Below, piece after piece: positions 350 through 11,544 of a stretch of DNA of 64,000 bases. Source of the stretch: Arcobacter arenosus (GTDB taxonomy: Bacteria; Campylobacterota; Campylobacteria; Campylobacterales; Arcobacteraceae). The notes under the pieces are model-generated. The model searched no databases, was not told the DNA's origin, and was given only the letters and a program-made list of their open reading frames with translations. The stretch's first letter is position 1. Every line of letters begins with the position of its first letter. The translations under genes and the position numbers were made by a program. The stretch covers positions 62,001 to 126,000 of the forward strand of contig NZ_VANU01000004.1 in the NCBI RefSeq assembly GCF_005771535.1, read 5' to 3'.

Positions 350-1093
350 TTGATTGAACTTTTACTTTTTGGATTAATTACAGGTTTTGTATCCGGCTTC
401 TTTGGTATTGGTGGAGGTACTATTTTAGTTCCAATGTTGATACTTTCTGGTTTTATTATCAAAGAGGCAATTGCAATCTCAATAATGCAAATGGTATTTA
501 GTTCAATATATGGTTCATTTTTAAATGCAAAAAAAGCCAAAAACATCTTCAAAGATGGTTTTATTTTAGGAGTTGGAGGGTTTGTAGGGGGTCTTCAAAA
601 TAGTTTTGTACACTCACTTGTATCAAATGAATTTTTACAATACTTATTTATTATAATAATTGTTTTATCAATTATCAAAATCTTTATCTCCCCTGCTCAA
701 TCTTCACAAGAAGTTAAGAATCATAGTAAAGCCTCGTTATTTATAATAGGTTTTATTGTAGGTATTATAGCTATGAGTATTGGTGTAGGTGGTGCTATTA
801 TGTTAATACCTCTTCTTGTAGGTGTTGCTAAGTATCCATTAAAAACTGCTACAAGTCTTAGTTTATTTTTTGTGATTTTTTCTTCAATTGCTGGATTTAT
901 TTCTTTATCTTTAGCAGGACAAATGCTTTTTTATGAAGGGTTTATAGTTGGTTTAGCTTCACTTGTTGGGGTATATTTTGGAATAAAAATAAAAAATACA
1001 ACACCTATTACTTCATATAAACAATCAATCTTATTTTTAAATTTCTTAATTTTAATTACAATGATTTATGATACTTTTTTTAAAGTCTCTTAA
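350..1093 (+). CDS. TauE/SafE (TSUP) family membrane permease
   Basis: This 247-residue protein is almost entirely hydrophobic, with about eight membrane segments. It carries the duplicated Gly-rich motif of the sulfite exporter TauE/SafE family, once near residues 13-24 (SGFFGIGGGTIL) and again near 144-155 (SIGVGGAIMLIP). The family moves sulfur-containing or other organic anions across the inner membrane; the substrate cannot be read from sequence. The start is a TTG five bases after the cysE stop, so the two are probably cotranscribed. The pairing with a cysteine biosynthesis gene fits a sulfur role, but that is inference. Confidence 0.85.
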   Translation: MIELLLFGLITGFVSGFFGIGGGTILVPMLILSGFIIKEAIAISIMQMVFSSIYGSFLNAKKAKNIFKDGFILGVGGFVGGLQNSFVHSLVSNEFLQYLFIIIIVLSIIKIFISPAQSSQEVKNHSKASLFIIGFIVGIIAMSIGVGGAIMLIPLLVGVAKYPLKTATSLSLFFVIFSSIAGFISLSLAGQMLFYEGFIVGLASLVGVYFGIKIKNTTPITSYKQSILFLNFLILITMIYDTFFKVS

Positions 1094-3441
1094 ACAATAT
1101 CCTTTAAAATAAAAGGAACTAGACCGCCATTTTTATATATTTGAATCTCAAATTCATTATCAAGTCTAAGTTTTAACTTTATTTGATATATTTGCTCCCC
1201 TTTATATATAAAAGCATCTAATTTTAAATCTTTTTTAATTTCACTATTTTTAATATTTATTGACTCATAACCTTTTAGATTTAAAGATTTAATATCATCA
1301 TCAATAAATTGTAAAGGCAAAATACCCATTTTAATCAAATCTTTTCTATGATTCTCACCAAATGATTTTGCAATTATTGCTTTTACTCCTAAAAGTTTTG
1401 TAGCTTTTGCTGCCCAATCGTTTGTTTCTCCGATACCATAATTTTCATCTGCTATTATGATTAAGTCTTTTTGAGACTGATGGACTCTTTTTGACTTTTC
1501 ATAAAAAGATATGATTTCACCTGTTTTGAAGTCTTTTGTAAATGCACCCTCCTTTGATACCATCATATTTTTTATCTCATTTGTATCAAAAGCACCTAAA
1601 ACCATCAGCTTACTACATCCTCTTCTATCTTCAAAGGTTCCAAAATCAAAAGATTTTACACCTTTTTCTTGAAGAAAATTTGCAACATTAATATATGGAG
1701 TTATTTGAATATTTGAAGAGATATATTTAGTTTTTATCTCATTATTAAATAAAGCTAGAATTTCACCATTTTCAATATTTATTTTATCTTTAAAACTCTC
1801 TTCTTTAAAAGGAAATACCTGTACAAAACTAGAGTCATCATTCCATGGAAAAGATTCACTTTTCTCAACTATAATATCTTGCCATTTTTCATTTCCTAAA
1901 AAAATATTTTTATAAATATCTTTATATAAAGTATCATCAATTTTTTCCAAATACCTTAGAACTTCACTATGCTCTGGCCATAATTCATTTGGATTCAATT
2001 TATCAAAAACCTTTAGTTTCATACTTCCTATTAAAGAATGAATAACAACCAAAGATGCTGACATAGTATAATTAAGTTTGATATTTTCATTAATATAATT
2101 ATTTTCTAAAGTCCCTGAACTAATTGAACAATCAGTTAATATATTAGGACTTAGTTTTTCTTCAATTTTTCCATTTGTGTTAACAAAATAAAAACCAATC
2201 CCTTCCAAATATTTTAATAAATCAAGATTTGCCAAATAATCATACACCGTTAAATCTGTTTTGAAAAAAGCTTTTATTTTTGAATCAATTCTAAAACCTT
2301 TTTCGTATGCTTTTTTGGCTACTAAAGCACAATGAATAATTAAAAATGGATTTAAAAAACCATTTGAAGTATCAATCAATGACAAGACTATATTTTTATC
2401 TTTAAAAACCTCATTTTTTAAATTAGGCATTACCCTTGGAAAAATATTACTTAAATCAAATTCTATACTTTCATCATATTCTAAATTGTTTTCCTCATTT
2501 AAAAAAAGTTTTTGTGTTTTTAAATATTTATCAACTAATTTACTAAAATCCTCATTTTGTCTAGTTTTATTGTAGTACAAAATAGTTTTTTCATCAATTG
2601 CAAAAAAAGAACATAAAGCCTTATAAGAAGAAGCCTTATTTAAAATTTTAGTTCTATTTTCTAGGGTTAAATATTTTAATCCGTCCCCATAAAATTCAAC
2701 AATTTTTTCATCTAAATTTGCGTTTTCTAAAACATCAAGTAAAACTTGTAAAAAATCTGATGATAATACTCCATCTTTTGGTTTTCCAACAACTTTTATC
2801 CCAACAACTTTTGGCAATTTAATTTTAAGAGGTAAGCCTAATATTGTCGCTAAAGCATCAATTGATTCTAATTTATGACCTAAAACTCCAAAAGAATTTG
2901 TCATATTATCTTTATAATCTGAGATAGCTATAGTTTCAGGAAATAAAAGAAACTTCTCTTCTATTTTTTCTATATGTAAAACAGTTGAAAGATATTCTAA
3001 ATTAATGGGATGAATTATTTTTGATCCTGGTGGGATAACTCTTAAGTTTGAAAAATTTTTGTCACACCATTTCGCAAGTTTATAGGTATCTTCATTTTCC
3101 TTCATATATTGAAGTAATAAATCAACACTAAGATTTAATTTTTTACTTTTTAGTTTTTCCTCTTTTAGTTTTGCAAGTTCTGCGAGTGTAGGGATAGCTG
3201 TATACTCTTTTAAAACTACCCTTGATGGATAAAAGTTTATAAATTCATCTTTTCTATTTGCAAATATATCTAAAATCTTTTTTGTTGTTAATTCATTTTT
3301 TGAATTTCTTATATTTGCTTCTAAAAGAATTTTCAAGGAAAGTGGTAATTTCTCTAATTTTGGGTTTTCATTTATTATTTTCTCTAAACTAAAATAAAAA
3401 AACCTTTCATTTTCAATTACAAAACTATCGATATATTCCAA
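1090..3441 (-). CDS. Degenerate aconitase-family protein (probable pseudoenzyme)
   Basis: The 783-residue frame is intact and collinear with AcnA-type aconitases (usually near 890 residues): LPLSLKILLEANIR at 32-45, VIPPGSKIIHPINLEYL at 135-151, FGVLGHKLESIDA at 184-196, RRGCSKLMVLGAF at 606-618, NDWAAKATKLLGVKAII at 674-690, MGILPLQF at 705-712. The expected catalytic positions are changed. The SCTNTSN motif reads SLIDTSN (354-360), so the first cluster cysteine is Leu355. Only one cysteine (C438) remains where CTTC is expected. DSH reads DYK (175-177). GSSRDW reads GETNDW (671-676). The arginine of ANIR is Glu622. It therefore probably neither binds a normal [4Fe-4S] cluster nor hydrates aconitate. 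It lies 73 bases downstream of a molybdenum-hydroxylase operon on the same strand. The comparison with the family is from memory. Confidence 0.8.
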   Translation of the reverse strand: MEYIDSFVIENERFFYFSLEKIINENPKLEKLPLSLKILLEANIRNSKNELTTKKILDIFANRKDEFINFYPSRVVLKEYTAIPTLAELAKLKEEKLKSKKLNLSVDLLLQYMKENEDTYKLAKWCDKNFSNLRVIPPGSKIIHPINLEYLSTVLHIEKIEEKFLLFPETIAISDYKDNMTNSFGVLGHKLESIDALATILGLPLKIKLPKVVGIKVVGKPKDGVLSSDFLQVLLDVLENANLDEKIVEFYGDGLKYLTLENRTKILNKASSYKALCSFFAIDEKTILYYNKTRQNEDFSKLVDKYLKTQKLFLNEENNLEYDESIEFDLSNIFPRVMPNLKNEVFKDKNIVLSLIDTSNGFLNPFLIIHCALVAKKAYEKGFRIDSKIKAFFKTDLTVYDYLANLDLLKYLEGIGFYFVNTNGKIEEKLSPNILTDCSISSGTLENNYINENIKLNYTMSASLVVIHSLIGSMKLKVFDKLNPNELWPEHSEVLRYLEKIDDTLYKDIYKNIFLGNEKWQDIIVEKSESFPWNDDSSFVQVFPFKEESFKDKINIENGEILALFNNEIKTKYISSNIQITPYINVANFLQEKGVKSFDFGTFEDRRGCSKLMVLGAFDTNEIKNMMVSKEGAFTKDFKTGEIISFYEKSKRVHQSQKDLIIIADENYGIGETNDWAAKATKLLGVKAIIAKSFGENHRKDLIKMGILPLQFIDDDIKSLNLKGYESINIKNSEIKKDLKLDAFIYKGEQIYQIKLKLRLDNEFEIQIYKNGGLVPFILKDIV

Positions 3442-3476
3442 TTTATAACCCTTTTAAAACTATTTGTAAAAATTAT

Positions 3477-3504
3477 CTAATCATTATAATAAAGATTTGA
3501 TTAG
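3477..3504 (-). terminator. Possible hairpin terminator after mocA
   Basis: The 73-base gap between the MocA-like gene and the aconitase-like gene holds inverted arms CTAATCA (3477-3483) and TGATTAG (3498-3504), followed on the minus strand by ATAATTTTT. The loop is 14 bases and contains a TATAAT-like hexamer on the minus strand. The site could therefore be a weak terminator, a promoter with an operator, or both. Confidence 0.3.
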
Positions 3505-3514
3505 TTTTTAAAGT

Positions 3515-4090
3515 TTATAAATCTAAATATGTACTTATATCTTCTTTTGTATCAATATCAATAGCCTCTTTTTTTTCTAATTTTATTGTAGGAGCATTGT
3601 TTTTTACCAAAATTGATTTAGCTCCTTTATCCCCTTTTAGTTTTAGTAAGCTTGGATAATATTTTTTAGAAAAAATAGCTGGAACTGTTGCTAAACTTCC
3701 ATATTTTGACCCAATTAAAGAGTCTTTTTCCAAGTTTTCAATTAGTTTTTCAAAATGAGACAATGGTATAAAAGGTTGATCACATAACATGATTAAACAT
3801 CTATCATACTCTTGTATTTGCTCTATACCAAAACAAATACTACTAGCAATACCATCTTGAAATCTTGGATTTACAGCAATTGCGATTGGATAATCGATTA
3901 TCTCCTCAACAATAGTTGTTGCTTTATGACCTAAAACTACAGTTACATTGTCACTTATTGATAATCCTTTTTCAATAACAATTTTTATTAAACTTTTATT
4001 TTTATATTTAATTAATTGTTTAGGTTTTCCTAATCTACTTGAGGTACCCGCTGCTAAAATTAAAACTGCTAAATCTTCAACTTTTTCCAA
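3515..4090 (-). CDS. mocA: MocA-like molybdenum cofactor cytidylyltransferase
   Basis: This 191-residue protein is a MobA/MocA-type nucleotidyltransferase. It has the N-terminal nucleotide-binding loop LILAAGTSSRLGKPKQL (10-26) and the metal-binding region LCDQPF (102-107). MocA transfers CMP to molybdopterin-Mo to make the MCD form of the cofactor used by xanthine-dehydrogenase-family hydroxylases; MobA makes the MGD form. The position decides for MocA: it starts at the base directly after the XdhC-like gene's stop and lies in the operon of a molybdenum hydroxylase. No other molybdenum cofactor genes are in the window. Confidence 0.85.
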   Translation of the reverse strand: MEKVEDLAVLILAAGTSSRLGKPKQLIKYKNKSLIKIVIEKGLSISDNVTVVLGHKATTIVEEIIDYPIAIAVNPRFQDGIASSICFGIEQIQEYDRCLIMLCDQPFIPLSHFEKLIENLEKDSLIGSKYGSLATVPAIFSKKYYPSLLKLKGDKGAKSILVKNNAPTIKLEKKEAIDIDTKEDISTYLDL

Positions 4091-4873
4091 TTATAATTTC
4101 CCATTTTTATTTGCTTCTATTTGTGAACAAATAGAAAGAGCTATTGATTCAGGAGTATAACTTCCAATATCTATTCCAATTGGAGCAAAAAATCTTTTTT
4201 CATTTTCTAAGTTAAACTGCTCTTTTTTTCTTTTTGCATTGTTTTTATTTCCCATTAATCCAATATAACTTATATCTGTTTTTAATAAACTCTCCAAATA
4301 AGTATCATCTGTTTTAGGATTATGACTTAAAATTACAGCTGCGTCATAATTAAAAAGATTTAAACTTTTTATATCTTCCAATTTTTCTAAATTGATTAAT
4401 TTATCAGCTTCTTTACAAAACTGTTTTTTTAAGTTAACATCAATTATAGTTGTTTTCCAACCCATTAAATTTGCCATTGATATTAAAGAACTTATATGAG
4501 CCCCACTTCCAAAAATCAATAGGGAAAATACTTTATTTATATATTTGCCAATCCCTTCATACATATTTTCATAATAAAAAGGAATAGTCCTATATTTACT
4601 ATTTCCATGTCCAGAACTTGGGTCTTTTGTAATTGATTCAAAAACTATTTCTTCTTTTAAATTTAAGGCATCTTTTGAATTCTCTTTTACTTTTTCTTGT
4701 AAAAAACCACTTCCTAATACACCTGCAAACTCAAAATTTGAGTTTACAAGCATTAAAGTTCCTTTTTTAGAAAAAGTTGAACCAGTTGTCTTTTCAACAT
4801 AGGTTAAAGCAATATCTAGTTTTCTTTCTTTTGAATTAGCTAAAAACCTATGTAATTGTTTATTTGAAAACAT
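4091..4873 (-). CDS. XdhC/CoxI family molybdenum hydroxylase maturation factor
   Basis: The 260-residue protein has the two parts of XdhC proteins. The N-terminal part carries a Gly-rich stretch (GVLGSGFLQE, 51-60), and the C-terminal Rossmann-like part carries LLIFGSGAHISSL (118-130) and the end motif APIGIDIGSYTPESIA. XdhC proteins bind sulfurated molybdenum cofactor and insert it into the apo-hydroxylase. Many family members have GGC in the first Gly-rich motif; here it reads GSGF, so a cofactor-contacting cysteine may be absent. It sits between the large hydroxylase subunit and the MocA-like gene with gaps of 3 and 0 bases. Confidence 0.85.
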   Translation of the reverse strand: MFSNKQLHRFLANSKERKLDIALTYVEKTTGSTFSKKGTLMLVNSNFEFAGVLGSGFLQEKVKENSKDALNLKEEIVFESITKDPSSGHGNSKYRTIPFYYENMYEGIGKYINKVFSLLIFGSGAHISSLISMANLMGWKTTIIDVNLKKQFCKEADKLINLEKLEDIKSLNLFNYDAAVILSHNPKTDDTYLESLLKTDISYIGLMGNKNNAKRKKEQFNLENEKRFFAPIGIDIGSYTPESIALSICSQIEANKNGKL

Positions 4874-4876
4874 TGT

Positions 4877-7021
4877 TTATCCAAGTTTTATTGGGAAATT
4901 AGTATATCTTTTTCCCGTTGCATCATATAAAGCATTAATTACTGCTGCAAACATAGGAGGAACTCCAACTTCACCAATACCACCAATTTTTTCACCTGAA
5001 TTGATAATCTCAACATTTATAGATTCAGGAGCATCTTTAATTCTATTTACCTCATAATCATAAAAATTGTTTTGAACTGTTGCCCCATTTTCTAAAGAAA
5101 TTTGTGCATACTTAATATATCCAATAGTAAAATTGATACACCCTTCAATTTGGTTTTCAATTCCCAATGGATTTATAGCCATACCACAATCAACTGCACC
5201 CCATACATTTTGTACTTTAAAATCATTGTTTTCAACTTTAACTTTTACAACATATGCAACGATACTTCCAAATGATTCAGCAATAGCTACACCATAACCA
5301 CTATTTTTCTCCCTATTGTACCAATCTGATTGTTTAGCAACATTTTCTAATAATTTTACAAATCTAGGACTTTTTAGATTTTTAATTCTAAAATCAAGGG
5401 GATCAATACCAGAAGCAATAGCAGCTTGGTCAACTATATTTTCAACAACAGGTGCTGAAGTTGTATGTCCAACAGATCTCAACCATAATACCGGAACAGG
5501 GGAATCTGGACAAAAGGCTTTTAAATCATGATTTGCAATATTATATGGATGGGTTTCTAAACCTTCCCTTTGTGTTGCATCAATACCATCTTTATACATA
5601 AACCCTTCAAACATTGTCCCTTTTGTCAAAGACTGATTAATAACATCTGCTTTAAAAGCTGTAATATAACCATTTTCATCAACTGCCATTTTTGCTTTAT
5701 TTACAGTAAGAGGTCTATAATAACCCATTTTAATATCATCTTCTCTTGTCCATAAAGTTTGTATTGGCCATTTTTCATCTTTTGCAACCAAAACAGCATC
5801 AATAACAAAATCACTAGCTGGGTTTGCTCGTCTACCAAAACTTGAACCTAAATAATTGTTATAATACTCTACATCCTCAGGTTTTATACCTAAAATTTTT
5901 GCACAAGTTCCTCTATAAAGTGTTTGAAATTGACCACCCACAGACATAAACGCCTTACTACCTTGATGATGAACAGTACAATTTAATGGTTCCATTGGTG
6001 CATGGGCCAAAAATGGAAAAGTATATTGTGCCTCAACTACTTTTTTAGCATTTTTAAAAGCTTCATTTGTATTACCATCTTTTTTCATAATTGGCAAATC
6101 ATCTTTATCAAAATAGCTTATATATTCTTTTTCCAAATCTTCAGAACTAACTTTCCCAAAATCACCTTTATCCCATTTTACTTCAACTTTATCAATTGCC
6201 ATTTTTGCTTGATACCAATGTTCAGCAATAATTGCTATTTTTTCATTTGAAAGTTTTTTAATCTTTAAAATCCCTGGCATGTTTTTTGCTTTAGAATCAT
6301 CATAACTGATAATTTTAGCTCCAAAAGATATAGGTTGAACAAGTGCTGCATATTTCATATTAGGTAATCTAACATCAATACCAAATTTAGCTTGACCAGT
6401 AATTTTTTCTTCCACTTCTAAAGGATGTCTTTTTATTCTTTTCCCAATTAAAGTATGTTCTTTAGCACTTTTTAGTTTTACATCATTTGGAAGTTTCATA
6501 TTTTTTATATCTTCAATTAAAGAACCATATGAAAGTTTTTCTTTTGTTTTTTTATTGATTACAAAAGAATCTTTTGTTGATACATCATACATTCTTACTT
6601 GCCATTTTTTTGCAGCAGCACTTTTTAACATATATCTTAAAGTAGCCCCAACTTGTCTTACTCTTTGTTGTTGAGTTTTAATACTCATAGACCCACCAGT
6701 TAACATCATTGGCATTCCAGGAATATTAAATACATCATTCACAGGAGCTGGTTCAAAAATAATTTCATCCCAAAAAGCATCAAGTTCATCGGCTATACAC
6801 ATAGCAATACCAGTATAAGCTCCCTGCCCCATTTCAACTTGTCCAAGATAAAAAGTAATTGTATTATCTTTATCAATTTTTATAAAAGCGTTTGGTTCAA
6901 TAACTTCACTTTTTTTCTCTACTTTAGAAGCCATACCTTTTGTTGGCAGATTAAACCCTACAATAAAAGCTGAACTTAAAAGGGCACTATTTTTTACAAA
7001 ATCTCTTCTATTTAAACTCAT
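4877..7021 (-). CDS. Molybdopterin-binding subunit of a periplasmic xanthine-dehydrogenase-family hydroxylase (IorB-like)
   Basis: This 714-residue protein starts with a twin-arginine signal (NRRDFVKNS, residues 4-12, then a hydrophobic stretch), so the folded enzyme is probably exported by Tat. The body matches aldehyde oxidase/IorB-type large subunits: LGQVEMGQGAYTG, a central LGSSFGRRA motif, and near the end GGIGEVGVPP (680-689), whose Glu684 corresponds to the catalytic glutamate of the family. The family hydroxylates aromatic heterocycles or aldehydes with water as oxygen donor; the substrate is unknown. The partner [2Fe-2S] subunit ends one base upstream, and maturation genes follow. 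There is no FAD subunit or cytochrome nearby, as is usual for the two-subunit isoquinoline-oxidoreductase type. Confidence 0.88.
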   Translation of the reverse strand: MSLNRRDFVKNSALLSSAFIVGFNLPTKGMASKVEKKSEVIEPNAFIKIDKDNTITFYLGQVEMGQGAYTGIAMCIADELDAFWDEIIFEPAPVNDVFNIPGMPMMLTGGSMSIKTQQQRVRQVGATLRYMLKSAAAKKWQVRMYDVSTKDSFVINKKTKEKLSYGSLIEDIKNMKLPNDVKLKSAKEHTLIGKRIKRHPLEVEEKITGQAKFGIDVRLPNMKYAALVQPISFGAKIISYDDSKAKNMPGILKIKKLSNEKIAIIAEHWYQAKMAIDKVEVKWDKGDFGKVSSEDLEKEYISYFDKDDLPIMKKDGNTNEAFKNAKKVVEAQYTFPFLAHAPMEPLNCTVHHQGSKAFMSVGGQFQTLYRGTCAKILGIKPEDVEYYNNYLGSSFGRRANPASDFVIDAVLVAKDEKWPIQTLWTREDDIKMGYYRPLTVNKAKMAVDENGYITAFKADVINQSLTKGTMFEGFMYKDGIDATQREGLETHPYNIANHDLKAFCPDSPVPVLWLRSVGHTTSAPVVENIVDQAAIASGIDPLDFRIKNLKSPRFVKLLENVAKQSDWYNREKNSGYGVAIAESFGSIVAYVVKVKVENNDFKVQNVWGAVDCGMAINPLGIENQIEGCINFTIGYIKYAQISLENGATVQNNFYDYEVNRIKDAPESINVEIINSGEKIGGIGEVGVPPMFAAVINALYDATGKRYTNFPIKLG

Positions 7022-7022
7022 A

Positions 7023-7478
7023 TTATGCTCCTTTAGAAACAGATGAAATTGCTGTTAATATTTTATTATAAGTACCACATCTACAAATATTTCCATCCAT
7101 AGCTGAGATAATCTCATCTTTTGATGGCTTTGAATTTGACTTTAATAATCCTGCAGCATTTACAAGTTGCCCCGATTGACAATATCCACATTGTGCAACA
7201 TCGTGTTCTCGCCATTGAATCCTTAAAGCATTTAACTCTTTATCTTCTTTATTTTCAATAGTTGTGATTTTTTTGCCATATGCTTTGCTTATAGGAGTTG
7301 AGCAACTTCTAATTGCTTGATTATCCAGTAATACAGTACAGGCTCCACACATACCAACACCACATCCAAACTTAGTTCCAGTAAGGTCTAAGTAATCTCT
7401 TAATACCCAAAGTATTGGGGTGTCTTGAGGAATATCTTTTAATTCAAATCTTTTTTCATCAACAAATATATAATTCAT
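7023..7478 (-). CDS. [2Fe-2S] subunit of molybdenum hydroxylase (IorA-like)
   Basis: The 151-residue protein carries all eight cysteines expected for the small subunit of this family: C39, C44, C47 and C59 (plant ferredoxin-like cluster) and C97, C100, C132 and C134 (four-helix cluster, CGYCQSGQ and ICRCGTYN). It passes electrons from the molybdenum centre to an outside acceptor. It has no signal of its own and is expected to be co-exported with the Tat-tagged large subunit (known for the family). AGGAG lies seven bases before the ATG. It is the first gene of a four-gene operon with gaps of 0-3 bases. Confidence 0.92.
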   Translation of the reverse strand: MNYIFVDEKRFELKDIPQDTPILWVLRDYLDLTGTKFGCGVGMCGACTVLLDNQAIRSCSTPISKAYGKKITTIENKEDKELNALRIQWREHDVAQCGYCQSGQLVNAAGLLKSNSKPSKDEIISAMDGNICRCGTYNKILTAISSVSKGA

Positions 7479-7633
7479 ATTTACTCCTAATTTCGAAATC
7501 TTACCACTTTATTCTATGAAAATTTAAAAAAAACCAATAGAACAATTATCTATATCAATTGCCTAATACTCCAAATCTATTAAATTTGATAATCAATTTA
7601 AATATCATTTTTAATAAAAACTTAAGTTATCTT

Positions 7634-8524
7634 CTAATTGTAAATATATACAAAATCTGATTTATTAATATCTATTTCTAAATCTTCTTTCTCTGAAATT
7701 TTTTCATTAGAGATTGTTAAAAAAGGAAGATTACTTAATCTAGCAAATCTTAATGGAATACCCAAATCATATTCAATATGCATAGAACCAACAAAAACCA
7801 ACAACTTGTCTTTTTTAGTTTTTAAAACTTTTTTTGAAAGTTCAGCAACATTGTTAGCCATAAAACTATCCCAAGCAACCTGAACTCTATACATTCTTTC
7901 CTCACAAGGTTCATTAGTTTCATTTGGCATTTTTTTACAATGATTTAAATATGGCATAACTAATTTTTGATGGGCATTTACATTTAAATCTAAAGAATCA
8001 TAAAAATCTTTTTCAGCTTTAGACATATCTTTTGTATTTTTAGTTGATATTTTTTTTCTTTCTTCTGTTGTAAGATTGATTCCATATAATCTTCCACCAT
8101 TTTTCTTTACAGTTTCATAAATAGGTTCTAGATACTCCCACTTAAATTTAGTAAATTTATCCCACTGTCTTTCCTCTTTTAATTTTTTTGAATCTATCTT
8201 ATCACTTGTATACTCTTCTAATATCTTATCGTGGCTTGGAGAAAACCATTCATTTGCTAAATTAAGTTTATATCCATTTTTATCCATCTCTTTTAGCAAT
8301 TCATTAAAAAATTCATGGGTTTTTTTAGTATTATGATGGTCACCAACAAATATTATAGGATAGTGTTCAAATTGTTTTACAAGGATTGAAGTATTAATCA
8401 TTTTTCCCTCTTTATTTGAAAAAATACCCTCCTCCTTTTTCAAATCATAACTTAAAACCAAATCTTTATTAGAACAAGCGGTAAAAACAAATAGTGTAAA
8501 TATCAGTAAAAAAACATTTTTCAA
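7634..8524 (-). CDS. ChaN-like (haem-binding uptake, Tiki superfamily) lipoprotein
   Basis: I place the start at TTG 8524 because AAAGGA lies six bases before it and the product then begins LKNVFLLIFTLFVFTAC, a clean lipoprotein signal with the cysteine at position 17. An upstream ATG at 8557 would add eleven residues. The mature part has the ChaN/DUF399 pattern: IIFVGDHHNTKKTHEFF, LANEWFSPSHDKIL, and VFVGSMHIEYDLGIP near the end. ChaN is an outer-membrane lipoprotein that binds haem and is linked to iron uptake; Tiki relatives can be metalloproteases. No iron-transport gene is adjacent, so the role is uncertain. Confidence 0.8.
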   Translation of the reverse strand: MKNVFLLIFTLFVFTACSNKDLVLSYDLKKEEGIFSNKEGKMINTSILVKQFEHYPIIFVGDHHNTKKTHEFFNELLKEMDKNGYKLNLANEWFSPSHDKILEEYTSDKIDSKKLKEERQWDKFTKFKWEYLEPIYETVKKNGGRLYGINLTTEERKKISTKNTKDMSKAEKDFYDSLDLNVNAHQKLVMPYLNHCKKMPNETNEPCEERMYRVQVAWDSFMANNVAELSKKVLKTKKDKLLVFVGSMHIEYDLGIPLRFARLSNLPFLTISNEKISEKEDLEIDINKSDFVYIYN

Positions 8525-8690
8525 AATTAATCCTTTAAATAACAAAAAATGATACAAACCATACTCTTAAAAAGAGATATCTTAAAAAGTTTCATTTGAT
8601 TTGTAAGGTATAAATAAACTTCAAGTTTAAAGTTTTTTTAGTATATATAAATAGTAGTTGAAATTACTACATATTAATAAACTATTATGA

Positions 8691-8696
8691 TATAAT
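8691..8696 (+). promoter_or_regulatory. -10 box of uvrA
   Basis: A perfect TATAAT followed by GCGC lies 31 bases before the uvrA start. No good TTGACA is present, which is normal for the vegetative promoters of Campylobacterota. The ribosome binding site is weak (TGGA). Confidence 0.6.
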
Positions 8697-8727
8697 GCGC
8701 CCTTAAAATTTTTTTAATGGACTATTT

Positions 8728-11544
8728 ATGACTGATACAATTAAAATATACAATGCAAAAGAAAACAACTTAAAAAATATAAATTTAGAGATTCCAAAAA
8801 ATAAACTTATTGTTTTTACTGGTCTTTCAGGTTCTGGAAAATCGACGCTTGCTTTTGATACACTTTATGCAGAAGGGCAAAGAAGATATATTGAATCTCT
8901 TAGTGCTTACGCTAGACAATTTTTAGATAAAGTTGGTAAACCTGATGTTGAAAGGATTGAAGGATTAACTCCTGCAATTGCAATTGACCAAAAAACAACT
9001 TCTAAAAACCCAAGGTCTACAGTTGGAACTATCACTGAGGTTTATGACTACTTTAGACTTTTATATGCAAGGGTAGGAAAACAGCATTGTCATAAATGTG
9101 GAGAACCAATCTCTCAAATGAGTGCAAGTGATGTAATTGATCAAGTTTTAAAACTTCCAGAAAATTCTAAAATTGTTATATTAGCCCCATTAATCAATAG
9201 AAAAAAAGGAACCTTTGCAGATTTACTTGATAGCTTAAGAAGTAAAGGTTATGTAAGAGCCATGATTGATGGAGTTATGGCAAGACTTGATGAAGATGTA
9301 GAGTTAGAAAAAAATAAAATGCACACTATCAAAGTTGTAATTGATAGGGTTGTAGTAAAAGAGGAAAACAAAGATAGAATTGCTCAAGATGTCGAAAAAG
9401 GTTTAAAAGAATCATTTGGAGAACTTGAAGTTGAAGTTATGAACCATGAAGAAGTTGGAGTAGATAAACATATCCATTACTCAGAACATATGGCTTGCTT
9501 TGATTGTAAAATCTCTTTTGAACCTTTAGAGCCATTATCTTTCTCATTTAACTCACCAAAGGGTGCTTGTTCTTCTTGTGATGGTTTAGGTATTAGATAT
9601 GCTTTAGATATGAAAAAAGTTGTAAATGAAGAACTTCCATTAGAAGATGGTGCCATTAAAATTATATATGGATTTAATAAAGGTTACTATTTTAAAATGC
9701 TTATTGCCTACTGCCAAGGGGCGGGAATAGATACAACAATCCCTTTCAAAGAGTTACCAGAACATCAACAAAAATCTATTTTACATGGCGGTATTGAAGA
9801 AGCAAAATTTGTTTGGAAAAGACATAATCTTACAAGAAAATGGGAAGGTATTGTTAAAATTGCCTATGACATGATAAAAGATGAAAAAGATATGGCTGAG
9901 TTTATGACTGAAAAAAAATGTTCAGATTGTAATGGAAATAGATTAAAACCCTCTTCTCAAAGTGTATATGTTGCTAAAAAAACTATTTCAGATGTGATAA
10001 ATAAACCAATTGAAGAAGCCCATGCCTTTTTCCAAGATGAAAAAAACTTTGAATACCTAAGTGAACAAAATAAGATGATTGCTGCTCCTATTTTAAAAGA
10101 GATAAAAGAGAGAATCTTCTTTTTAAATGATGTTGGTCTTGGATATATAACCTTAGGAAGAGATGCAAGGACTATTTCAGGAGGAGAAGCTCAAAGAATT
10201 AGGGTTGCTTCACAAATTGGTTCAGGATTAACAGGAGTTATGTATGTTTTAGATGAACCATCAATTGGACTTCATGAAAGAGATACAAGTAAACTAATAA
10301 AAACATTAAAAGCCTTACAAGAAAAAGGTAACAGTGTAATTGTAGTTGAGCATGATAAAGAAACAATTGAAGCTGCTGATTTTATTGTTGATATTGGTCC
10401 AAATGCAGGGAAATATGGTGGAGAAATTGTTTTTGCAGGAACATTAAAGCAGATGAATAAAGCTAAAACTTTGACTGCACAATATATGAATGGAAAGAAA
10501 AAGATAGAATATCCACACAATAGACCACAAGAAGAGTTTATAGAAATAAAAAATGTAAATATCAATAATATTGAAAACCTTGATGTAAAAATACCATTAA
10601 AAAATCTATGTGCAATTACTGGTGTTAGTGGAAGTGGTAAATCATCACTTATTTTACAAACCCTACTTCCTGTTGCAAAAGAGTTATTAAATCATGCAAG
10701 AAAAGTAAATAAGGTTGATGGGGTAGAGATTCAAGGCTTAGAAAAGCTTGATAAAGTTATATATCTTGATCAATCTCCAATTGGAAGAACACCAAGATCA
10801 AACCCTGCAACATACACAGGTCTAATGGATGAGATTAGAACACTTTTTGCAAAAACAAAAGAAGCAGAGATAAGAGGATACAAAATAGGTAGATTCTCAT
10901 TTAATGTTAAAGGTGGTAGATGTGAAAAATGTCAAGGTGAAGGTGAAATAAAAATTGAGATGCACTTCTTACCAGATATTATGGTTAAATGTGATGATTG
11001 TCAAGGACATAGATATAATGCTCAAACACTTGAAATCCTTTATAAAGGTAAAAACATTTCAGATGTACTTAATATGAGTGTAGATGAAGCCTTAGAATTT
11101 TTCCAAAAAGTTCCTAAAATAAAAGCAAAACTTCAAACACTAGCTGATGTTGGACTAGGATATATAACCCTTGGCCAAAATGCAGTTACCCTTTCAGGTG
11201 GAGAAGCGCAAAGAATTAAATTATCAAAAGAACTTAGTAAAAAAGATACCGGAAACACTTTATATGTATTGGATGAACCAACAACAGGACTTCATTTTGC
11301 TGATGTTGATAGATTAACAAAAGTATTACACCATCTAGTGGAAGTTGGAAATTCTGTTCTTGTAATTGAACATAATCTTGATGTTATTAAAAACTCTGAT
11401 TGGGTTATTGATATGGGACCAGAGGGAGGAAGTAAAGGTGGAAAAGTTATTGCTGAGGGCACACCTGAAGAGTTAGCAAAAACACATAAAGAAACCTCTT
11501 CTTACACAGGATATTATTTAGATAAAGAATTAAATGGTAAATAA
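8728..11544 (+). CDS. uvrA: Excinuclease ABC subunit A
   Basis: The protein is 938 residues, the usual UvrA length, with two ABC ATPase halves. Walker A motifs are GLSGSGKST (32-40) and GVSGSGKSS (632-640). Both signature motifs (SGGEAQRI) and Walker B motifs (VLDEPS and VLDEPT) are present. Zinc-binding cysteine pairs CHKCGE, CFDCK...CSSCDG and CEKCQGEG...CDDCQG are intact. UvrA dimers scan DNA, recognise bulky lesions and load UvrB for nucleotide excision repair in the cytoplasm. The last eleven bases overlap the next gene, which indicates cotranscription. Confidence 0.98.
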   Translation: MTDTIKIYNAKENNLKNINLEIPKNKLIVFTGLSGSGKSTLAFDTLYAEGQRRYIESLSAYARQFLDKVGKPDVERIEGLTPAIAIDQKTTSKNPRSTVGTITEVYDYFRLLYARVGKQHCHKCGEPISQMSASDVIDQVLKLPENSKIVILAPLINRKKGTFADLLDSLRSKGYVRAMIDGVMARLDEDVELEKNKMHTIKVVIDRVVVKEENKDRIAQDVEKGLKESFGELEVEVMNHEEVGVDKHIHYSEHMACFDCKISFEPLEPLSFSFNSPKGACSSCDGLGIRYALDMKKVVNEELPLEDGAIKIIYGFNKGYYFKMLIAYCQGAGIDTTIPFKELPEHQQKSILHGGIEEAKFVWKRHNLTRKWEGIVKIAYDMIKDEKDMAEFMTEKKCSDCNGNRLKPSSQSVYVAKKTISDVINKPIEEAHAFFQDEKNFEYLSEQNKMIAAPILKEIKERIFFLNDVGLGYITLGRDARTISGGEAQRIRVASQIGSGLTGVMYVLDEPSIGLHERDTSKLIKTLKALQEKGNSVIVVEHDKETIEAADFIVDIGPNAGKYGGEIVFAGTLKQMNKAKTLTAQYMNGKKKIEYPHNRPQEEFIEIKNVNINNIENLDVKIPLKNLCAITGVSGSGKSSLILQTLLPVAKELLNHARKVNKVDGVEIQGLEKLDKVIYLDQSPIGRTPRSNPATYTGLMDEIRTLFAKTKEAEIRGYKIGRFSFNVKGGRCEKCQGEGEIKIEMHFLPDIMVKCDDCQGHRYNAQTLEILYKGKNISDVLNMSVDEALEFFQKVPKIKAKLQTLADVGLGYITLGQNAVTLSGGEAQRIKLSKELSKKDTGNTLYVLDEPTTGLHFADVDRLTKVLHHLVEVGNSVLVIEHNLDVIKNSDWVIDMGPEGGSKGGKVIAEGTPEELAKTHKETSSYTGYYLDKELNGK

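Follow-up and report, generated by a model that had tools for sequence, protein, structure and literature searches.

What role is left for an aconitase whose active site has been removed? The question is raised by a gene in the window (the whole stretch of DNA analysed, 64,000 nucleotides) that encodes a full-length protein of the aconitase family without the catalytic residues or the iron-sulfur cluster ligands. We will use the term "pseudo-aconitase" for this protein and its orthologues. The gene and its surroundings are as follows:

350..1093, plus strand: tauE/safE-type gene, last of the ubiX-coaD-tmk-hisS-speA-cysE-tauE operon
1090..3441, minus strand: pseudo-aconitase gene, 783 aa, with a TTG start at 3441 and the stop codon at 1090-1092
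1306..1683, minus strand: domain 4 core of the pseudo-aconitase (Aconitase_C, residues 587-712), 94 bits, above the Pfam cut-off
3449..3455, minus strand: Shine-Dalgarno-like AAAAGGG, 7 nt upstream of the pseudo-aconitase TTG
3515..7478, minus strand: molybdenum hydroxylase operon (MocA-like, XdhC-like, Mo subunit, 2Fe-2S subunit)
8728..11544, plus strand: uvrA, the conserved opposite flank of the locus

An earlier note on this DNA had described a full-length, unbroken aconitase-family frame at 1090-3441, and the 783-aa frame is indeed present, with the correction that it lies on the minus strand; its final sense codon reaches down to 1093. The Pfam Aconitase model covers residues 63-337 with 150 bits, above the cut-off, Aconitase_C matches the domain 4 core, and by its domains and fold the protein belongs to the aconitase superfamily. 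The best family model is AcnA (NCBIfam NF006757 and TIGR01341), which spans the whole protein with 516 bits (cut-off 686) and gives a second score of 513 bits (cut-off 945), while the AcnD model TIGR02333 reaches 270 bits against a cut-off of 1420. The nearest solved sequences are those of IRP2 and IRP1, and PADLOC returned no match. The start, the Shine-Dalgarno sequence and upstream elements are conserved among the orthologues, with a TTG at the homologous start position in 28 of 34. The domain 4 core is also well conserved among them, with invariant R606, N625, K630, D637, E642, S693, L702 and G706.

The window protein has been aligned with E. coli AcnA, AcnDs of the same family, AcnAs of other phyla, and the orthologues. 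In mitochondrial aconitase numbering for the reference residues, unless stated otherwise, the altered motifs are:

2914..2922, minus strand: DYK, residues 174-176, in place of DSH (D165-S166-H167)
2347..2370, minus strand: TSNGFLNP, residues 358-365, in place of SCTNTSNP; the first cluster cysteine, C358, is Ser359
2146..2184, minus strand: low-confidence loop, residues ~420-432, at the deleted CTTC segment (C421, C424)
2092..2118, minus strand: SGTLENNYI, residues 442-450, in place of SGNRNFEGR; R447 and R452 are gone
1576..1578, minus strand: Glu622 at the Arg of ANIR (E. coli AcnA R725, IRP1 R728)
1414..1431, minus strand: GETNDW, residues 671-676, in place of GSSRDW; the catalytic base S642, S643 and R644 are gone

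The alignment bears out the earlier reading of DYK, GETNDW and Glu622. The SCTNTSN motif is altered as claimed, but the orthologues place the cysteine position at Ser359 and not at Leu355. The reported loss of one CTTC cysteine understates the change: the deletion takes out the entire segment (~498-509 in E. coli AcnA) and both cysteines with it, and none of the three [4Fe-4S]-binding cysteines is left. H101 of the DHS motif (D100/H101) and D568/H569 of TTDHIS have been lost as well. The positions of Ser642, R447, R452 and R644 are taken by Glu, Leu, Tyr and Asn. In total, 4 of the 20 usable active-site columns are retained; a 21st, Arg580, varies among active enzymes and was dropped. Motifs hidden at shifted positions, which the earlier note had named as a possible refutation, are ruled out by the alignment with orthologues and active enzymes.

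The genome encodes four aconitase-domain proteins: the pseudo-aconitase, AcnB, AcnD and a 428-aa LeuC-like protein. The true AcnB (1411 bits) and the true AcnD (1507 bits) lie elsewhere in the genome and are intact, so the TCA and methylcitrate steps are covered. The acnD gene is followed by a frame of about 398-399 aa, which we take to be prpF from the known acnD-prpF arrangement. AcnD is present in about 80 of 104 genomes, in carriers and non-carriers of the pseudo-aconitase alike, and its co-occurrence is therefore uninformative. One genome (G048) encodes, beside a pseudo-aconitase and AcnD, an additional AcnA-like protein of 882 aa in which the main motifs are intact (L142:1929-4574); it is closer to the AcnAs of other phyla and was possibly acquired horizontally. 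In Arcobacter, AcnB is the TCA-cycle enzyme, and apart from AcnB and AcnD no such protein is mentioned in the genome paper of Arcobacter butzleri (PMC2147049).

Orthologues with an open frame, 36–51% identical to the window protein, are found in 34 of the 104 genomes of the same family (Arcobacteraceae), and two further genomes of the 104 hold remnants. At the genus level, 15 of 16 genomes are carriers. No pseudo-aconitase was found outside the Arcobacteraceae in a 397-genome sample of the class. When 84,980 species genomes were scanned, the only carriers were Arcobacter-type bacteria, namely Poseidonibacter lekithochrous, P. ostreae and several Arcobacter and Campylobacterales MAGs; the next-best matches are 25-29% identical AcnAs, and those checked (several) have intact motifs. 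The pseudo-aconitases group together to the exclusion of AcnA and AcnD (support 100). Their pairwise distances correlate with those of hisS (r = 0.74), speA (0.71) and uvrA (0.68), in agreement with vertical descent. The mean distance is 0.54 versus 0.12 for uvrA, and the gene evolves several-fold faster than its neighbours. Selection is nevertheless purifying: dN/dS lies between 0.055 and 0.22 in ten close pairs, below 1 in each, though usually higher than in the neighbouring housekeeping genes. In 32 genomes, with an average difference of 12% between their uvrA proteins, frames of ~780-860 codons remain open.

Wherever both sides of the locus can be seen, the pseudo-aconitase lies between the ubiX-coaD-tmk-hisS-speA-cysE-tauE operon and uvrA. 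It is convergent with tauE, and in the window the 3' ends overlap by 4 bp; close or overlapping ends of these two genes recur across many genomes of the genus. Within the operon, speA, which lies upstream of the window (L049:4768-6564), likewise has a TTG start in each of the 15 genus genomes examined, going by the longest-frame call. An insertion hotspot flanked by conserved housekeeping genes lies beside the pseudo-aconitase, mainly on the uvrA side (3442-8727 in the window; L035-L049 and L067-L086), and its cargo differs by genome. The molybdenum hydroxylase operon, to which the earlier note had drawn attention, is part of this cargo. Among the genomes examined it occurs at the locus in the window genome only, and synteny rules out a tie with the pseudo-aconitase; the two are accidental neighbours.

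Taken together, these observations agree with the proposal that several Arcobacteraceae share a conserved pseudoenzyme clade, since the losses are shared, the frame is kept under purifying selection and a single syntenic site is occupied. A lone decaying gene, the alternative that the homologue search addressed, is not what was found; there are 34 orthologues with low dN/dS, though decayed copies exist. The pseudo-aconitase is a conserved non-catalytic protein under selection, and we hold this with high confidence.

The residues appear to have been lost in a certain order. The catalytic base Ser642 is kept in one of the 34 orthologues with two changes by parsimony, which places its loss near the base of the family. 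Other residues with low retention are H569 (2/34), D568 (5/34), R452 (4/34), R447 (6/34) and H101 (8/34). C358 is kept in 20 of the 34 (seven changes), C421 in 12 (four changes) and C424 in 4 (four changes); several changes per cysteine indicate that the cluster was lost repeatedly and later than Ser642. All three cysteines persist in three orthologues (G007, the least altered member, G083 and G075) on both sides of the tree. Judged from the residues, none of the 34 orthologues has a functional active site. On the other hand, W646 is kept in 32 and E262 in all 34. Across the 34 pseudo-aconitases, retention is 0.42 for active-site columns versus 0.57 for the remaining columns that do not vary among active enzymes, a modest effect (permutation p = 0.036); in the window protein the values are 0.21 versus 0.48. 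Newly invariant positions specific to the family, among them Asp637 and Glu642, sit in domain 4, and conservation is concentrated in the structural core and domain 4 while the cleft drifts.

In two members (G011 and G013) domain 3 is gone altogether (roughly E. coli residues 372-598), and domains 1, 2 and 4 are kept. The two in-frame deletions are:

L048:8359-10374: domain-3-less relative, 671 aa
L047:8347-10215: domain-3-less relative, 622 aa

The two members stand apart in the larger tree, though not in the smaller one, and going by the larger tree the losses may be independent. Decay has gone further elsewhere. One copy (G088) has internal stops, one (G089) is a C-terminal remnant next to an unrelated inserted gene, and a third, in a MAG (L117), has frameshifts and an internal deletion. 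In G089 a small TIR-domain-like gene (L134:10671-11213) stands in place of the 5' part. One genome of the same genus (G004) has no gene and a clean 124-bp tauE-uvrA junction. Three decayed copies and one clean loss mean that the pseudo-aconitase is dispensable; it is useful, not essential.

The shape of the protein has been predicted with one AlphaFold2 model from a shallow alignment of the 34 members (pLDDT 84.4, pTM 0.85) and compared with one control model, that of AcnD from the same genome (20 sequences, pLDDT 79). The window model resembles open, RNA-bound IRP1 (3snp and 3sn2; TM 0.83-0.84, rmsd 4.1-4.3) much more than closed, cluster-bearing IRP1 (2b3x; TM 0.60, rmsd 10.8) or mitochondrial aconitase (TM 0.45-0.47, rmsd 11-12), and its TM-score with IRP2 (6vcd) is 0.85 by target length. 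The AcnD model shows the opposite preference, with TM 0.86 and rmsd 4.7 for closed IRP1, 0.67-0.70 for mitochondrial aconitase, and TM 0.69 and rmsd 8.9 for open IRP1. The contrast between the two models is the one expected if the window protein is cluster-free and AcnD carries a cluster. The top Foldseek match for both is a model of the AcnA-IDH complex (PDB 9a4j). As to whether the cleft is retained, for which the earlier note had suggested a fold prediction, the cleft-bearing domains are kept in all full-length members, and their predicted arrangement in the window protein is open, like that of the IRP1-RNA complex.

When IRP1 loses its cluster, domain 4 can move outward and the core becomes accessible to RNA (PMC7181819). 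IRP2 lacks both the cluster and aconitase activity (PMC4056636), and apo-AcnA of M. tuberculosis binds IRE-like RNA (PMC7527780). The residues of IRP1 in contact with the IRE are S371, K379, T438, N439, S681, P682, R713, R780, D781 and W782 (PMC4184891). The window protein keeps only S681, R713, D781 and W782 of these, and it has no residue at the Lys379 position. Across the orthologues, Ser681 (27/34), Pro682 (27/34), Trp782 (32/34) and Arg712 (34/34) are mostly kept, and Arg780 (10/34), Asn439 (7/34), Thr438 (11/34) and Arg713 (9/34) are mostly lost. The Arg728 position is mostly Lys, and Glu in the window protein. No shift to basic charge of the kind that could indicate RNA binding was seen; the pI is mostly 5-6, acidic like that of AcnA. 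The IRP1-like RNA-binding role suggested earlier thus gains from the predicted open conformation and loses from the change of most RNA-contact residues.

Based on these observations, we propose that the bacterial pseudo-aconitase has lost catalysis and probably acts as a binding protein or regulator in an open, cluster-free form. A family-specific AcnA paralogue, inherited vertically, would have become non-catalytic near the base of the family (Arcobacteraceae), with Ser642 and D568/H569 going first; the iron-sulfur cluster ligands would then have been lost repeatedly while the four-domain fold was kept. By analogy with apo-IRP1 and IRP2, the inability to bind the cluster and the predicted open form suggest that the protein may be a dedicated binding protein held permanently open and cluster-free. 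Binding or regulation as the function, and a macromolecule as the partner, are what we infer from this analogy. A macromolecular partner (RNA or protein), which domain 4 and the domain 1-2 core would touch, is favoured since no new conserved set of residues has arisen in the cleft and domain 3 is dispensable.

That the partner is RNA is possible, and we suggest it tentatively. A narrower form, in which the protein would be a dedicated, non-switchable "bacterial IRP2", locked open, acting only as an RNA-binding post-transcriptional regulator and arisen independently of the animal one, is doubtful. Still less can be said for a counterpart of IRP1/IRP2 that binds IRE-like hairpins through the same contact residues, which we consider improbable: the predicted open form resembles the IRP1-RNA complex, the M. 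tuberculosis precedent exists, and Ser681, Pro682, Trp782 and Arg712 are retained in most or all orthologues, but the remaining contacts are mostly lost, the Lys379 and Arg728 positions are changed in the window protein, and domain 3, which bears the loop contacts, is dispensable. With most IRE-contact residues lost and two relatives lacking domain 3, the literal IRP1 mechanism is doubtful. The protein could also bind other proteins, either as a scaffold or as the regulatory subunit of some metabolic complex in which, for example, isocitrate dehydrogenase, citrate synthase, AcnB or AcnD takes part. Contacts would then be made through the outside of domains 1, 2 and 4 and not through the cleft. 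The conservation of the structural core and domain 4, the drifting cleft, the deletable domain 3 and the Foldseek match to the AcnA-IDH complex are consistent with such a role. No neighbouring or co-conserved partner gene is seen except housekeeping genes, however, and AcnD is distributed without regard to the pseudo-aconitase, and we regard the scaffold as rather unlikely.

Two readings without a macromolecular partner are less likely than one with it, and each has only a slim chance of being right. Other catalysis, or the sensing of a citrate-like metabolite, through a remodelled cleft would explain why the cleft-bearing domains and E262 persist in all full-length members and why three members keep all three cysteines. 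The former active-site positions, however, hold E, K, N, I or gaps depending on the member, with no new conserved polar set, and domain 3 is missing from two members. This free variation also disfavours one of the roles put forward in the earlier note, the binding of a different ligand in the old site. A slowly eroding AcnA relic, functionless or disappearing, would account for the high divergence, the repeated motif loss, the domain 3 deletions, and the decayed and lost copies. Against it stand the long frames maintained over the divergence seen in uvrA, dN/dS far below 1 in each close pair tested, and the conserved start, Shine-Dalgarno sequence and upstream elements.

Moonlighting of aconitases is known, and so are pseudo-aconitases of animals (IRP2). 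The literature searched, the coverage of which was partial, yielded no bacterial example spanning a whole clade, and no bacterial paralogue with permanent loss of catalysis in many species. In the pseudo-aconitases graded stages of this loss are visible: the catalytic serine first, then the cluster cysteines repeatedly, then domain 3 in two members. This ordered series lets one ask what the aconitase fold does once freed from its chemistry. It also corrects an annotation, as such genes are otherwise labelled aconitate hydratase and counted as part of the TCA cycle.

Comparison with known systems places the pseudo-aconitase as follows. AcnB shares the aconitase domain and has another architecture. 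AcnD (2-methylcitrate dehydratase) belongs to the same superfamily, with about 30-32% identity to the pseudo-aconitase, but keeps all motifs, has a closed predicted fold and is followed by the putative prpF. The AcnA/IRP1 type is closer, with end-to-end homology, the same domain order and the best family model, although the pseudo-aconitase scores below the cut-offs, lacks the catalytic Ser and the three cluster Cys, and forms its own clade. Its predicted open domain arrangement resembles that of apo, RNA-bound IRP1 (3snp, 3sn2); unlike IRP1, it is not a switchable enzyme, and most of the IRE-contact residues are changed. IRP2 (6vcd) is an animal protein with known IRE binding; like the pseudo-aconitase, it is an aconitase homologue without cluster or activity.
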